From positions 62,001 to 126,000 of the forward strand of contig JAIXZW010000013.1 in NCBI GenBank assembly GCA_027489375.1: DNA of 64,000 bases, read 5' to 3'. Position numbers and translations under genes: made by a program. The notes under the pieces were generated by a model that saw only the letters and a list, made by a program, of their open reading frames with translations, was not told the DNA's origin and made no database searches. Shown in pieces: positions 696 to 6,453 of this stretch. Every line of letters begins with the position of its first letter. Position 1 is the stretch's first letter. This stretch comes from Paracoccaceae bacterium. Lineage in GTDB: Bacteria > Pseudomonadota > Alphaproteobacteria > Rhodobacterales > Rhodobacteraceae.

Positions 696-1682
696 TTATG
701 CCGCCTCGTTCTTTTGGGCCAGAAGGACGACGAAAATGATGATCATCGCCAGAATGAATCTTTGGAACCAGATACCCATGCCCAAGAGGACAAGGTAATT
801 CAGCATCACGGCGCTGACCGTTGCCCCGAGGAAGGCACCCAGCACCGTGCCCTTGCCGCCGACAAGGCTGCCGCCGCCAAGGACGACTGCGGCAATCGCC
901 ATGATCACCATCTCGACCGGCGTGCCGCCGGTTGCGGCCGTGGCGGGCTGGAAGGTCCCCATGCGGGCAAAGGTCAGGTATCCCGCCAGCGCGGCCAAAG
1001 TGCCGCTGACGACATAGACCGAACACAGGACCAGATTGGTATTCACGCCGATGTTGCGTGCCGCGTTCTTGTTGGAGCCGACCGCATAGACGTTCTTGCC
1101 ATAGGTCGTGTTGGTCATCACCCACCAGAACAGGGCCACCACGACGATCATCACGGCTGCCGGAATGGGGATGCCCGCGATCGCACCGCCGCCGATCTCT
1201 TTGAAAAGCGGGTCGATCCCCTGCGGCGCGACCGCATTGCCTTCGGTGTAGGTCATGACGATGCCGGTCATGATGCCGCCGGTCGCAAGCGTTGCGATGA
1301 AGGGTTGCATCTTGCCGTAGACGCAGAGCACGCCGTTGATCACGCCAAGCCCCGCACCAAGCAGCAGGGCCAGAAGAAACGCGTTCCCCGCCGAAACCCC
1401 CGAGCCGAGCAAGAGCATGGTGCACAGCCCGACAAGCTGCATGATGGCGCCGATCGACAGGTCGATCCCGCCGACGATCAGCACCAAGGCCATGCCGATT
1501 GCGACGATGCTCAGATATGAGCCCTGACGGCTCAGGTTGAAAAGGTTGTCCGAAGTCAGGAAGAACTCGGTGAACAACGGGGCGACCGCAAATGCCAGAC
1601 AAAGAAGAATGACCAGCGTTGCTTCCGACCGATAGTCGCCCAGCCAGCCTGCGACTCCGTTCTGCGTTTGAGATTTCTGCAT
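696..1682 (-). CDS. Sugar ABC transporter permease (RbsC/AraH family)
   Basis: Inner-membrane channel subunit of the sugar-type ABC importer, 328 residues, the usual family length. It has about eight to ten hydrophobic segments and the family-typical stretch GGIDLSIGA after the second or third segment; GSNKNAARNIGV and GGGSLVGGKGT near the C-terminus match the conserved cytoplasmic loops. The reading frame stays open upstream to about 2132, but ATG 1682 gives a normal N-terminus (MQKSQTQNG) and is preceded by a GGAAACGGGG ribosome site. The gene ends one base before the ATPase start, so the two are translationally linked. A 197 bp gap holding a strong hairpin separates it from the upstream BKACE gene. 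Confidence 0.93.
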   Translation of the reverse strand: MQKSQTQNGVAGWLGDYRSEATLVILLCLAFAVAPLFTEFFLTSDNLFNLSRQGSYLSIVAIGMALVLIVGGIDLSIGAIMQLVGLCTMLLLGSGVSAGNAFLLALLLGAGLGVINGVLCVYGKMQPFIATLATGGIMTGIVMTYTEGNAVAPQGIDPLFKEIGGGAIAGIPIPAAVMIVVVALFWWVMTNTTYGKNVYAVGSNKNAARNIGVNTNLVLCSVYVVSGTLAALAGYLTFARMGTFQPATAATGGTPVEMVIMAIAAVVLGGGSLVGGKGTVLGAFLGATVSAVMLNYLVLLGMGIWFQRFILAMIIIFVVLLAQKNEAA

Positions 1683-1879: not shown

Positions 1880-2860
1880 TCAGGCTGCGCGGTAGCCCGC
1901 CTGGGACTGCTTCGCGATGCCGTAGATTTCCCGCGCTTCCTGCTGCGTGGCGAGCGGACGGCCGACTTCGCGGGCGATGTCCTGCACTTCCTTGAGCAGT
2001 TCGAGGTTGGTCGGGTTGCGGGCGGGGTCGTAGAACAGTTCGAGACCGGTCTTGACGTGGCCGCCCAGTTCGATCGTGCGGCGGATCACGTCGCGGGTGT
2101 CGCGGTCGCCTTCGCCCCAGATCGAGATGCACCAGTTCAGCTTGTGCTTCGAATAGGTCTCCATCATGTCGAGATAGTAATAGAGGCTTTCGAGCGTCGG
2201 CATCATGCCCGACGTGCCGATCGGCTTCGTCGAGGTGAGGGCGTATTCGCCGATCAGGTAGAAGTCGTAGAACGAACCGGGCGTGTACATGCCCTGATTG
2301 ACGTAGTGCATGGCAAGCTTCAGCTGGCCGGGTTCGTAGACGCCCCAGATGATGCTCATGTCACGGCCCAGCGCCAGATCGACCTGCCCCGCGACGCGCT
2401 TGTAGTTCCAGCCGTATTCACGGCCCTGGATGTGGCCGCGCGCATCGACATCGAAGGCGAACAGGTTGATACCCGTGTCGATGCAGGCGATGTTCACGTT
2501 GTGCGTGCGGTTCAGGATTTCGCTGTGCTCGAGCCCGTGCTCGTCCTCGGTGCAGTTCAGCACGTTGCAGGTCGTCGGATACCACGTCATGTCGGGACGG
2601 GCCTTGAGGATGCGGTCCCATGCGGGCTTGTAGTCATCCACCGCGGCCTGACCGGTCAGGTTGAAGTTGGTGTTGTGCACGTGGATCGCGCAGGAACCGG
2701 CATCCCAGCAGGCGATCGCATCTTCGACGACTTCGTCGTAGGTGCGCGGCGTGTTGGGGTTCATTTCCTTGGTGCGTTCGCCGTTGAGGTGCGATTCAAT
2801 GATCAGCGGGGTATCCCAGCCGGGCTTGCGGTTCACGAATTTGTCGAGGGACGTGGCCAT
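1880..2860 (-). CDS. 3-keto-5-aminohexanoate/beta-keto acid cleavage enzyme (BKACE, DUF849 family)
   Basis: BKACE enzymes are zinc-dependent and condense a beta-keto acid with acetyl-CoA, giving acetoacetate and a new CoA ester. The protein has 326 residues, somewhat longer than the roughly 275-310 of typical members. The HVHN sequence (about residue 60) is the family's His-x-His zinc site, and GGHVKTGLE near the C-terminus matches the conserved end of the barrel. ATG 2860 was chosen over the more upstream in-frame ATG (2896) because AGAGAGGAA sits at the right distance before it. The gene lies inside the sugar-type ABC operon, between binding protein and permease. This suggests it acts on a keto acid made from the imported compound. 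The substrate cannot be read from the sequence. Confidence 0.87.
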   Translation of the reverse strand: MATSLDKFVNRKPGWDTPLIIESHLNGERTKEMNPNTPRTYDEVVEDAIACWDAGSCAIHVHNTNFNLTGQAAVDDYKPAWDRILKARPDMTWYPTTCNVLNCTEDEHGLEHSEILNRTHNVNIACIDTGINLFAFDVDARGHIQGREYGWNYKRVAGQVDLALGRDMSIIWGVYEPGQLKLAMHYVNQGMYTPGSFYDFYLIGEYALTSTKPIGTSGMMPTLESLYYYLDMMETYSKHKLNWCISIWGEGDRDTRDVIRRTIELGGHVKTGLELFYDPARNPTNLELLKEVQDIAREVGRPLATQQEAREIYGIAKQSQAGYRAA

Positions 2861-2936: not shown

Positions 2937-4016
2937 TCAGTTGGTGTATTCTGCGGCGTTGTCCTTGGTGATCAGCGGCTCCTGGTACCAGATGTGCGGA
3001 TCGATCACGGCACCCTCGGCAACGGCCAGAGCCGCGTCGACCACAGTGGTCATGTCCGATTCCCAGAAGACCGAAGCTTCGGCGGCGGAACCGTTCAGGA
3101 TTTCCTGGACGAGATCTTTTTGGCCATCGACGCTGACCATCACCACTTCGTCCTCGCGACCGGCGCTGCGCAGCGCTTCAAGCACGCCCATGCCCATTTC
3201 GTCGTTCATCGCGTAGATGCCGTCGATGTCGGGGTTGGCTTGCAGCAGGTCGACCGCGGCGGTCATCGCCGGCATGCGGATCCACGCGCCGGACTGTTTG
3301 CCCACGACCTTGATGTCGGGATACTTGTTGATGACTTCCATGAAGCCGCCCAGACGGAATTCATAGTTCGACGATTCGACCACACCTTCGATGATGATGA
3401 TGTTGCCTTTGCCGCCCAGACGGTCAGCCATGTACTGGCCCAGCAGTTGGCCGTTGTACCAGTCATCGGGGCTGATGAAGGACGTGTACTTGATGTTCTT
3501 GGCGCTGTCGTCCGGAATGCCCGAGTTGTTGATGATCAGCGGGATACCGGCAGTGTTGACCGCCTCGTAGGCCGGATAGACGGCGGTGCCCGACAGGCTG
3601 CTTGCGACGATCACGTCGGGCTTGCGCTGGATGAGGCTTTCGATGTTCGCGATCTCGACGCCCACGTCACCCGTGCCTTCGGTCACGAAGCAGGTCACGT
3701 TCGAGTATTTCGCGCAGTTCGATTTGAAGGTCTCGACCATGTTGATGCGCACGGGATGGTTCATCACCACCTGCGAGAATGCCAGACGGATCGGATCGCC
3801 CTTGCCGTAGACGCCCTTCTTCTCGCCCTCGCGCGCCTTGGCGACGAAGTCGTCCTTGGACATGTAGTTCGGGTCCTTCAGGATCGATTCCGGCGTCGGG
3901 TCATAGGCCGACTTGAAGGTAAGCCCTTCGGCATTCGCCGCGAGGCCAAAGGCGCTGATGATTGTAGCGCTGGCCAGCGACAAGGCAAGCCGATTGGGTT
4001 TGAACATCTTGGTCAT
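2937..4016 (-). CDS. Sugar ABC transporter periplasmic substrate-binding protein (RbsB type)
   Basis: Periplasmic receptor of the importer, 359 residues. The N-terminus (MTKMFKPNRLALSLASATI) is a signal peptide with likely cleavage after the alanine in AANA-E. The mature part has the type 1 periplasmic-binding fold: repeated alpha/beta units, IQRKPDVIVASSLSG in the first lobe and DGIYAMNDEMGMGVLEALR in the second. The mature protein has an unusually long lead before the first beta strand (about 55 residues, to about residue 78), longer than in ribose-binding protein. ATG 4016 is preceded by AGGAGGAG, an almost ideal ribosome site, which fits high expression. It is the first gene of the operon; the promoter region upstream carries a set of TGAACAT half-sites. 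Confidence 0.92.
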   Translation of the reverse strand: MTKMFKPNRLALSLASATIISAFGLAANAEGLTFKSAYDPTPESILKDPNYMSKDDFVAKAREGEKKGVYGKGDPIRLAFSQVVMNHPVRINMVETFKSNCAKYSNVTCFVTEGTGDVGVEIANIESLIQRKPDVIVASSLSGTAVYPAYEAVNTAGIPLIINNSGIPDDSAKNIKYTSFISPDDWYNGQLLGQYMADRLGGKGNIIIIEGVVESSNYEFRLGGFMEVINKYPDIKVVGKQSGAWIRMPAMTAAVDLLQANPDIDGIYAMNDEMGMGVLEALRSAGREDEVVMVSVDGQKDLVQEILNGSAAEASVFWESDMTTVVDAALAVAEGAVIDPHIWYQEPLITKDNAAEYTN

Positions 4017-4341
4017 GGTCGTTTTTCTCCTCCTTGGTGGTCTTGTGCGTTCGGGATCGGTCTGGACCCGGCTGCCGAAGTTCACGACTTCGGGCAGACG
4101 GATTGTCAGGCCATCGGCGGAACGGCCGGACGGTAGGTCGCGGCCCTGCGGCCGGAACTGCCGCGCCGTGCGCTGGCCCCGCCGACAGTGACGTCGGCAC
4201 CAAATTCCAGAAGGAAAACCGAAAGAACGACGTGATCGGATACTGCCTGATCGGCACCGTTCGCCTTGGAACGGATACGGATTTGCTGCGGAACCCTGTT
4301 GCAATCGAAAGTCACGGCGTCGACTCCTCCCTGAATCGGCT

Positions 4342-4389
4342 TGAACATATGGATATGGGATTTTGTAACTTGGTCAACATAAATGTTCA
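4342..4389 (-). promoter_or_regulatory. Candidate promoter of the ABC/BKACE operon flanked by two TGAACAT half-sites
   Basis: On the minus strand, TTGACC (4377-4372) and TATCCA (4355-4350) form a candidate -35/-10 pair with a 16-bp spacer. One TGAACAT half-site lies just upstream of the -35 (4389-4383). An inverted copy (4348-4342) lies just downstream of the -10, near the start point. The inverted pair has a centre spacing of 41 bp, close to four helical turns, as expected for a regulator that loops or flanks the promoter. Only the sequence pattern is seen; the regulator is unknown. Confidence 0.5.
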
Positions 4390-4472
4390 GACAAAGTTAA
4401 ACGGATCAGAGCAAGTGTTCGGGAAAAGCAGAAATCGGCGAAGAAACACAGGGATTTCGGGAGTCGACGATC

Positions 4473-4479
4473 TGAACAT
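4473..4479 (+). promoter_or_regulatory. Isolated TGAACAT half-site
   Basis: Third of five copies of the 7-mer within 280 bp, between the promoter pair and the palindrome. Listed because of the clustering; a single 7-mer alone would mean nothing. Confidence 0.35.
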
Positions 4480-4584
4480 TAAGCCTATGAAAAAATCAAT
4501 ATTTCACTCTTTTTTCACTGCGATTGGACGAAGAAGATCGCAGTCAAGAGATTGCCTTTAAAGCGACTCGCCTTTTACAGGGTA

Positions 4585-4618
4585 TGAACATTTTGTATTT
4601 TAAAATACACAATGTTCA
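4585..4618. promoter_or_regulatory. 34-bp near-perfect palindrome
   Basis: Sixteen of 17 base pairs match; the only mismatched pair is 4593/4610. The outer arms are TGAACAT and ATGTTCA and the inner core is GTATTTTAAAATAC. It lies 108 bp past the nsrR stop and about 210 bp upstream of the candidate operon promoter. The AT-rich arms and absence of a T-run make it unlike a terminator and more like a double operator for the ABC/BKACE regulator. Confidence 0.6.
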
Positions 4619-4725
4619 CATCTAAGCTTGGCGGACCCGCATTGGCAGGCTCCGCAAATGAACGGCATCGCGCGGAATATCGGCGCGTGGCCCAGGCCAA
4701 CGGCCAGTCGGCCGGCAACGGCGGG

Positions 4726-5157
4726 TCACGCCCTGCCCGATGCGACCCGCTCTGCCCCCGGATACAGGCAGTCTGCAAGCGTGCTGCGGTTCAGGTCTGA
4801 AATGAAGGCAGCCTCGGCCTGCACAAGGCGGGATCTGAGACGGCACTGCGGCGTCAGCGTGCAATTCCCGCCGCCTGCGCCAAAGCACTCCACCAAAGCC
4901 TGATTGGCCTCGAGCAGCGCCACAACCTCGCCCAGCCGGATTTCCGCCGCCGGACGCGCCAGCAACGCGCCGCCCTGCCCGCCCCTGCGCGTCTTCAGCA
5001 GACCATGTGCGGCGAGGGTAGAGATGACCTTGGCCAGATGGTTGCGCGAAACGCCGAATTCGTCGGCAAGGTCGGTGGCGGAAAAGGCGCGGGCCGGATC
5101 GCCCGCCATCCTCATGAGGATCCGCAGGCCGTAATCGGTGAAGGAGGTGAGGCGCAA
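4726..5157 (-). CDS. nsrR: Rrf2-family nitric oxide-sensing repressor NsrR
   Basis: Rrf2 transcription factor of 143 residues. Rrf2 proteins of the NsrR type bind an Fe-S cluster that NO destroys, relieving repression. The N-terminus (RLTSFTDYGLRILMRMA) is the NsrR/IscR winged-helix start. Three cysteines (VECF, GNCTL, PQCRL; about residues 92-107) sit where the cluster ligands are expected. The start is a TTG at 5157, since the family begins with MRLTSFTDYGL and no ATG is available; GGAG lies about 10 bases upstream. It is divergent from nnrS, a classic NsrR target, and an NsrR-like box lies between them. Confidence 0.9.
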   Translation of the reverse strand: MRLTSFTDYGLRILMRMAGDPARAFSATDLADEFGVSRNHLAKVISTLAAHGLLKTRRGGQGGALLARPAAEIRLGEVVALLEANQALVECFGAGGGNCTLTPQCRLRSRLVQAEAAFISDLNRSTLADCLYPGAERVASGRA

Positions 5158-5176
5158 GGTCGCGGGCTCCGTTTCG

Positions 5177-5189
5177 GTATTTTAAATGC
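5177..5189. promoter_or_regulatory. NsrR-like operator between nsrR and nnrS
   Basis: GTATTTTAAATGC fits the core GYATTTNAAATRC of the published NsrR consensus; the outer AT bases of the full 17-bp site are not conserved. It is 20 bp from the nsrR start and 50 bp from the nnrS start, so it could control both. Confidence 0.6.
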
Positions 5190-5238
5190 GTATTAGTGGG
5201 CGCTATGCTTGGTCAAGACAAATCCCGAAGGAAACGTC

Positions 5239-6453
5239 ATGACCCGTTCGACAGCCCGCCAGATGCGGGCATGGACCGGACCCGCCCTGCTGACCTATGG
5301 CTTCCGGCCTTTCTTTCTTGGTGCGGCGCTCTGGGCGCTGGTTGCCATGCTGATCTGGGTGCCCGTGGTGACGGGGGCGCTGTACCTGCCGAGCGCATTC
5401 GATCCGGTCACGTGGCATGCGCATGAATTCCTTTTCGGCTACCTTGGTGCGGTGATCGCGGGCTTTCTTTTGACAGCCGTGCCGAACTGGACGGGACGCC
5501 TGCCCATCGTCGGCGGGCGGCTCGGTCTGTTGGCGCTGGTCTGGATTGCGGGACGCATCGCCATCGCCTTCTCGGCGCGGATTCCGGCCGTTGCGGTCGC
5601 GGCCGTGGATCTTGCCTTTCCGCTCCTCCTCGCACTTGCCATCGGGCGCGAGATCGTGGCGGGCAAGAACTGGCGCAACCTCGCCGTGCTTTTCATGCTC
5701 GGGGCGTTCACGGCGGGGAACGCCGCCTTCCATTACAGCGCGATCAGTGGCGGCTTCGCGGCGCAGTCGGCAGGCTTGCGGCTTGGTCTGGGCGCGGCCG
5801 TGTTGATGATCGGCGTCATCGGCGGGCGGATCATCCCGTCCTTCACCCGCAACTGGCTTGCCAAGCGCGGTCCGGGGGCGCTGCCCGCACCGCCGATGCA
5901 GCGCTTCGACAAGGTGGCGCTCGGCAGCCTCGCACTCGGCCTGCTGGTCTGGACCGCGCTGCCGGACCATCCGGCAACCGGCATCCTCCTGCTGCTGGCC
6001 GGTGCCCTTCATGCCGCACGGCTTGCGCGGTGGGCGGGCCACCGCACGTTGGCCGAACCTTTGGTCGCCGTGCTGCATGCCGGCTATGCCTGCCTTCCGC
6101 TCGGCGCATTTGCCCTCGGTGCCGAGGCGCTTTGGCCCGACACTTTTGGCATGGCCGCTGCGCAACATCTCTGGATGGCGGGGGCCACTGGTTTGATGTC
6201 ACTTGCCGTGATGACACGCGCAACGCTCGGCCATACGGGCCAGACCCTGACCGCAGGTCGCGGCACCGTCACGATCTATCTGGCACTCGGCCTTTCCGTC
6301 CTTGCCCGCGTCGCGGCAGGGGCCATGCCCGGGGTCTACACGCCGCTGATCTGGATCGCCGCGACAGGCTGGATCACCGCCTATGCCGGTTTCGCCCTGC
6401 TCTACGGCCCGTTGCTCATCCAGTCGCCCGCTGCAAAAAGCGCCGCCCGGTGA
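5239..6453 (+). CDS. nnrS: NnrS family membrane protein (nitric oxide response)
   Basis: NnrS proteins are polytopic heme- and copper-containing membrane proteins that protect cells against nitrosative stress. This one has 404 residues, the family's usual size, with about twelve hydrophobic segments. Typical family stretches are GFRPFFLGAALWAL near the N-terminus, WHAHEFLFGYLGAVIAGFLL, and GGRIIPSFTRNWL; the histidines of WHAHE and HLWMAG are candidate metal ligands. ATG 5239 follows GAAGGAAAC; an in-frame upstream start exists at 5209 but lacks a ribosome site. It is divergent from nsrR with an NsrR-like box between them. Confidence 0.93.
   Translation: MTRSTARQMRAWTGPALLTYGFRPFFLGAALWALVAMLIWVPVVTGALYLPSAFDPVTWHAHEFLFGYLGAVIAGFLLTAVPNWTGRLPIVGGRLGLLALVWIAGRIAIAFSARIPAVAVAAVDLAFPLLLALAIGREIVAGKNWRNLAVLFMLGAFTAGNAAFHYSAISGGFAAQSAGLRLGLGAAVLMIGVIGGRIIPSFTRNWLAKRGPGALPAPPMQRFDKVALGSLALGLLVWTALPDHPATGILLLLAGALHAARLARWAGHRTLAEPLVAVLHAGYACLPLGAFALGAEALWPDTFGMAAAQHLWMAGATGLMSLAVMTRATLGHTGQTLTAGRGTVTIYLALGLSVLARVAAGAMPGVYTPLIWIAATGWITAYAGFALLYGPLLIQSPAAKSAAR

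Follow-up and report, generated by a model that had tools for sequence, protein, structure and literature searches.

Gene organization upstream and downstream of the AT-rich gap

The window, i.e. the whole 64,000-nucleotide stretch of DNA that was analysed, corresponds to C7:62001-126000 of its genome. Its left part carries a leftward row of genes that includes the following (window coordinates):

2937..4016, minus strand: gene 1 of the operon, ribose-type ABC sugar-binding protein (PF13407, 3e-47)
1880..2860, minus strand: BKACE (beta-keto acid cleavage enzyme; PF05853, 7.6e-43)
696..1682, minus strand: ABC permease (PF02653)

Left of the window (region L009), the row continues on the same strand with an ATPase gene (recognized by ORF inspection), a second permease gene (PF02653) and a SorC-family regulator gene, here named SorC1. 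The linked regulator gene that the first-pass annotation had suggested looking for to the left of the window is therefore present, on the same strand and with a PF04198 domain. We infer that the leftward row forms one transcript. No Rfam family reached the threshold in 3900-5300, so no leader RNA element was recognized, and no intrinsic terminator was found in 4016-5240. Within the leader (4016-4330), a ribosome-binding sequence and a GTG start align weakly (21 bp, E = 0.38) with the start of the kinase gene in the orthologous operon L014, and the sequence downstream of the aligned start has no kinase homology. Loss of the kinase from this operon may have left a leader of roughly 320 nt behind. 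A ribokinase-like gene (L010 10717-11667) adjoins SorC2, one of the two further SorC genes described below.

SorC-family regulators and the catabolic island

Three SorC paralogues were identified in or beside a 29-kb catabolic island (C7:37696-66618):

L009 15053-16177, minus strand: SorC1, SorC-family regulator, last gene of the row (PF04198, 4.2e-58)
C7:35659-36594: SorC2, 59% identical to SorC1
C7:40554-41501: SorC3, 40% identical to SorC1

The C-terminal sugar-binding effector domain of SorC1 (PF04198) scored 197 bits against a cut-off of 27. Its best solved relative is 8r7y, 'Deoxyribonucleoside regulator' (DeoR; 1.9e-34), followed by LsrR and the sorbitol operon regulator. An N-terminal homeodomain-like HTH is predicted from these alignments, which span residues 13-314 of 8r7y and 18-311 of LsrR; the match to the generic HTH_28 model (20.5) was under the cut-off of 25. 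The first-pass annotation had expected a sugar regulator of the DeoR or LacI type. The first alternative agrees with the assignment to the SorC/DeoR subfamily (PF04198, the kind represented by DeoR of B. subtilis and by LsrR), but a LacI-type regulator was rejected, as a Pfam scan of 14 linked proteins detected no LacI DNA-binding domain.

The recognition helices are alike in the three paralogues. The genes near SorC2 and SorC3 include ribokinase-like kinase, zinc-dehydrogenase-like and GlpD-like genes, all of which scored under the NCBIfam cut-offs, and an oxidoreductase gene with a weak homoserine-dehydrogenase match, which is presumably of the SAF type. The segment C7:26001-66016 contains three SorC genes, two BKACEs, three ribose-type binding proteins, a LacD-like aldolase and a pyruvate-dehydrogenase E1-beta-like gene.

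TGAACAT words and candidate operators in the gap

The gap ahead of the sugar-binding protein gene contains the following features:

4342..4348, minus strand: lone half-site ATGTTCA (on the operon strand), directly past the -10 box
4350..4355, minus strand: candidate -10 box TATCCA, with a 16-bp spacer, from sequence only
4356..4389, minus strand: O1, primary candidate operator (TGAACATTTATGTTGACCAAGTTACAAAATCCCA), which includes the 4383 word
4372..4377, minus strand: candidate -35 box TTGACC within O1, with an inferred promoter function
4473..4506, no strand assigned: O2, weaker candidate auxiliary operator, 117 bp upstream of O1, with 11 of 14 outer letters
4585..4618, no strand assigned: O3, perfect symmetric TGAACAT-N20-ATGTTCA, 229 bp upstream of O1, formed by the 4585 and 4612 words

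A word search located TGAACAT or its complement at 4342(+), 4383(-), 4473(+), 4585(+) and 4612(-), which confirmed the five copies reported in the first-pass annotation. Their clustering in the AT-rich gap (4330-4630) is far above the chance level, with a mean of 0.086 words and a maximum of 2 in 5,000 dinucleotide shuffles. In the whole window, 17 copies occur where shuffles average 4.1, and the local GC content is 0.41-0.46 for the five gap words and 0.56-0.74 for the remaining 12.

A 34-bp unit and its genomic distribution

The geometry of the site was derived by listing all TGAACAT words of the island and related regions, and spacings were counted in 12 regions that carry a SorC gene or an orthologous operon. 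With at most one mismatch, seven pairs have a start-to-start spacing of 27 bp (five in this genome and one each in G034 and G342), other spacings average 0.09 pairs each, and a spacing of 41 bp occurs a single time, at this promoter. When two mismatches were allowed, 18 pairs were found at a spacing of 27 and five at 41 (mean, 1.53); at three mismatches the peak was drowned (34 pairs at spacing 27 and 36 at spacing 32; mean, 13.25). The inverted pair with 41-bp spacing that had been proposed to flank the promoter is literally present, but it was rejected as the unit by these counts, in which the enriched start-to-start spacing is 27. Judged from the sequence, the true unit is larger than the 7-mer, namely a putative 34-bp operator TGAACAT-N20-ATGTTCA, in which the outer half-sites TGAACAT and ATGTTCA stand 27 bp apart and an inner TTGAC is often present. 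The 34-bp palindrome with word arms, also noted previously, is real (4585-4618; 16 of 17 pairs) and coincides with O3.

In the 3.9-Mb genome, this pattern occurs at eight places when two mismatches are allowed. Six of the eight are inside the 29-kb island, which also contains or adjoins the three SorC genes. These island sites are as follows (gene gaps from ORF lists, with inferred start codons):

Palindrome (O3): no mismatch
Kinase/dehydrogenase gap: 1 mismatch
Oxidoreductase gap: 1 mismatch
Hydrolase gap: 1 mismatch
Second binding-protein gene: 1 mismatch, plus a back-to-back copy with 2 mismatches

Spacers of 18 and 23 at the same mismatch level gave three and four genome places, none of them within the island, and exact TGAACAT-N(0-30)-ATGTTCA occurs solely at 4585-4618. 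With up to three mismatches the pattern becomes unspecific, because 69 genome places match, of which 10 lie in C7:26001-70000; the reversed pattern matches at 5 places. Among 394 family genomes, 123 have a copy with at most one mismatch, and this genome, with five, has the highest number of the table. Such a copy is present in 12 of the 27 family genomes with a SorC relative (1e-50) versus 111 of the 367 without one. Across the 394 family genomes, occurrence of this pattern is not clearly linked to carriage of a SorC relative, and the pattern is not diagnostic alone; therefore, it is predictive only inside such islands.

The candidate promoter operator O1

O1 overlaps the -35 box, and its end adjoins the -10 box. 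Both boxes of the TTGACC/TATCCA promoter described in the first-pass annotation are present on the minus strand, but they are not in the output of a generic promoter scan, the one match of which is on the plus strand at 4574-4601. We scored the gap with a matrix from nine operators, two of which are from the same island but none from this operon; O1 and its two orthologues were left out. O1 obtained 37.2 bits, O3 23.6 bits and O2 18.5 bits, against a background maximum of 7.9 bits (window 7001-64000), and a matrix made from other genomes only (seven sites) gave O1 35.4 bits. The outer letters of the matrix are not independent evidence, because the training sites were chosen by the outer pattern (≤3 mismatches). 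Scores of 37.2, 23.6 and 18.5 bits were reached in 0, 5 and 27 of 2,000 gap shuffles, respectively; thus, as far as the matrix goes, the evidence for O2 and O3 is weaker than that for O1. O1 has 10 of 14 outer letters, its right outer half being degenerate. It appears to combine the features of a SorC/DeoR-type operator, i.e. TGAACA/TGTTCA half-sites, an inner near-palindrome and overlap with the -35 box; its degenerate right half-site and the lack of a -35 box at O3 are the exceptions.

The gap has a GC content of 39% within a GC-rich genome, and the array could have been produced by chance clustering in AT-rich DNA, a reading with which the above matrix scores of O3 and O2, taken alone, are compatible. 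However, five words were reached in none of the 5,000 composition-matched shuffles and the matrix score of O1 in none of the 2,000 gap shuffles, and the fixed spacing is found again at other promoters. For the array as a whole, chance is refuted by the shuffles and is an extremely improbable explanation; this verdict does not extend to the lone 4342 word, which scores 1.3 bits within a 34-mer and falls outside the 27-bp geometry. The strand of this word reads CATATGTTCAA, and the DeoR operator of B. subtilis has the same 11 letters at its right end.

Conservation in orthologous operons

Relatives of the binding protein are rare: they were found in this genome and one other of the 394 family genomes (1e-100) and in this genome only among 385 class genomes (1e-80). 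No plasmid relatives were detected at 1e-60, and a scan of genome contigs yielded three loci. Footprinting was therefore limited to four loci, L013, L014 (Nioella), L015 and G165 (= L016/L047). The expectation that the site is conserved upstream of orthologous operons held for O1 in two of the four (L014 and G165) but not for L013 and L015. In L014 and G165, a 29-30-bp match to 4360-4390, which covers most of O1, is the best in the 390-bp stretch, and the letters invariant in the three aligned promoters are TGAACAT.TAT.TTGAC..A..TACAAAA. The 4342 word is absent from both aligned orthologous promoters.

A SorC1 orthologue (62.6 and 64.7% identity, respectively; clade support of 0.976 in the tree) is located downstream on the same strand in L014 and G165, and the complete gene order from O1 to this orthologue was verified for L014 alone. 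In L013, no SorC gene is present in the 9.5-kb contig, and the best upstream candidate (777) scored 12.4 bits. The only SorC relative in L015 (38%) is divergent, and the best upstream candidate of this locus (8511), approximately 80 bp ahead of the gene, scored 15.1 bits. Both candidates are above the background of 7.9 bits and far below O1.

O2, O3 and paired candidate operators

O3 is the only zero-mismatch copy of the operator in the genome, its 14 outer letters were matched in none of 2,000 gap shuffles, and no gene promoter belonging to it is evident. O2 is the best site in 4390-4584 (shuffle p = 0.006 by the matrix and 0.0095 by the outer letters), and its 11 of 14 outer letters were matched in 54 of 2,000 shuffles of the whole gap.

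Second sites were searched for around 15 main operators in 30 flank tests, each with 300 composition-matched shuffles. For eight operators, a second site lies no more than 250 bp away (uncorrected p ≤0.013), and for seven there is none at that level. The offsets (bp) are as follows:

This genome: 34, 145 and 229
G165: 118 and 162
G320: 71
G010: 71
G342: 108

The G165 site at 118 bp is upstream of its O1 (p = 0.010), and the second site at offset 34 lies on the side of its main operator that faces the gene. Some second sites may instead serve a divergent gene. Upstream of the second binding-protein gene (L009 14715-14782, C7:58715-58782), two operators are placed back to back, 34 bp apart, and in both G320:C11 (L050 11574 and 11645) and G010:C12 (L054 565 and 636) the second operator is exactly 71 bp off. 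The offsets 34, 71, 71, 108 and 145 step regularly; 118, 162, 172 and 229 do not fit.

O2 and O3 might be non-functional leftovers of a divergent promoter that has been lost. L014 and G165 carry, divergently from the operon, what by inspection is a dehydrogenase-like ORF, and a second site falls at or within the beginning of this ORF (G165 5982, p = 0.010; L014 8746, p = 0.097); here, nsrR/nnrS take the divergent side. Relics, however, would be expected to decay, whereas O3 is without a mismatch, and we regard this origin as rather unlikely.

The neighbour on the divergent side offers another reading of O3, in which the adjacent Rrf2/NsrR-like regulator would bind the 34-bp palindrome (centre TGTATTTTAAAATACA) and the palindrome would be independent of the other words. 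The NsrR-like gene (4726-5157; 110.9 bits against the NsrR model, under the cut-off of 182) ends about 107 bp from the palindrome, the centre of which, we assume, resembles an NsrR-type AT-rich palindrome. NsrR-type sites have the 6-1-6 pattern GYATTTNAAATRC. A genome search with this motif found it at just two places, neither in the palindrome, the centre of which is one base longer; moreover, in outer letters and spacing the palindrome agrees with the other sites of the island. The motif search led us to discard the palindrome as an NsrR site, and this reading is very unlikely. One of the two genome places is an NsrR-like 6-1-6 palindrome, GTATTTTAAATGC at 5177-5189, between the Rrf2/NsrR-like gene and nnrS.

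Proposed model of regulation

The array most likely serves as operator region for a repressor of the SorC family (SorC/DeoR subfamily), probably SorC1, and represents a well-supported candidate operator array for which the regulator family is already known. Regulators of this subfamily bind DNA as a dimer of dimers, from which a sugar phosphate releases them. In the absence of the effector, a SorC tetramer (two dimers) would occupy O1, mask the -35 box and exclude RNA polymerase, while the perfect O3 and the weak O2 upstream could hold extra repressor or bridge to O1. Binding of a sugar-type effector would free the DNA, and the uptake and breakdown genes would be induced together with the regulator. 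We infer autoregulation because the regulator gene closes the row. Further predicted targets of SorC1 are the genes at C7:37696, 41575, 52690, 58715 and 66356-66618.

Three SorC proteins with similar recognition helices are encoded in or beside the island, and the binder may instead be SorC2, SorC3 or all three paralogues, given their identities of 59% and 40% to SorC1 and the same half-sites at the adjoining kinase and oxidoreductase promoters. However, the O1-bearing operons of L014 and G165 carry the SorC1 orthologue downstream, and no SorC2-clade gene is present in the examined 20-21 kb of either. SorC1 is thus favoured, because it is co-inherited with O1, and binding by the other paralogues is possible but distinctly less probable.

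The presence of second operators near many promoters raises the question of whether SorC tetramers loop DNA. We tentatively suggest, as an idea that is more doubtful than probable, that looping tetramers join O1 to O3 (229 bp) and O2 (117 bp), and that the three paralogues read one 34-bp operator and thereby wire several sugar-acid operons into one switch.

For an alphaproteobacterial BKACE/ABC sugar-acid island that was otherwise unassigned, these results provide a candidate operator, a candidate regulon and the name of a likely regulator. The 34-bp pattern, with a promoter operator and auxiliaries, may help to locate the genes that SorC relatives control within islands of this kind.

Comparison with known systems

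Among the listed titles and abstract beginnings on SorC-family operators, motifs and looping, nothing was found on this operon or on SorC looping, which does not prove absence from print. In the E. coli lac system, LacI acts through a promoter operator plus auxiliary operators. The present locus is similar in having one promoter operator and upstream auxiliary operators, and differs in that none of the 14 linked proteins has a LacI DNA-binding domain (Pfam). SorC1 probably shares fold family and domain order with E. coli LsrR and Klebsiella SorC; unlike LsrR, it scored 111 bits against an NCBIfam cut-off of 486.

The closest parallel is DeoR of B. subtilis, which controls dra-nupC-pdp and is also a SorC/DeoR-subfamily regulator. 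In a study of this regulator (PMC11229326), for which a published correction exists, its operator ATTGAACAAAATTTCAATTACCAATTTACATATGTTCAA is given as 39 bp, extending from -60 to -21 and located partly over the promoter, with TTGAACA, TTACA and TGTTCAA in this order. According to the same study (PMC11229326), DeoR forms tetramers and contacts TTGAACA, contact with TTACA is proposed, and the authors expect that a tetramer binds the full operator (measured KD, about 30 uM). SorC1 scored far under the threshold for a DeoR equivalog (NCBIfam NF053881, 176.9 bits versus a cut-off of 420). Its gene is at the operon end, whereas deoR is upstream, and additional upstream operators are present here, unlike at dra-nupC-pdp. 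The outer-to-outer distance is 34 bp here versus 36 bp for DeoR, and the left palindrome is 2 bp longer here. The two operators share the half-site TTGAACA/TGTTCAA, the order of left near-palindrome, TTACA and right half, and a position partly over the promoter, which in O1 is the -35 box.
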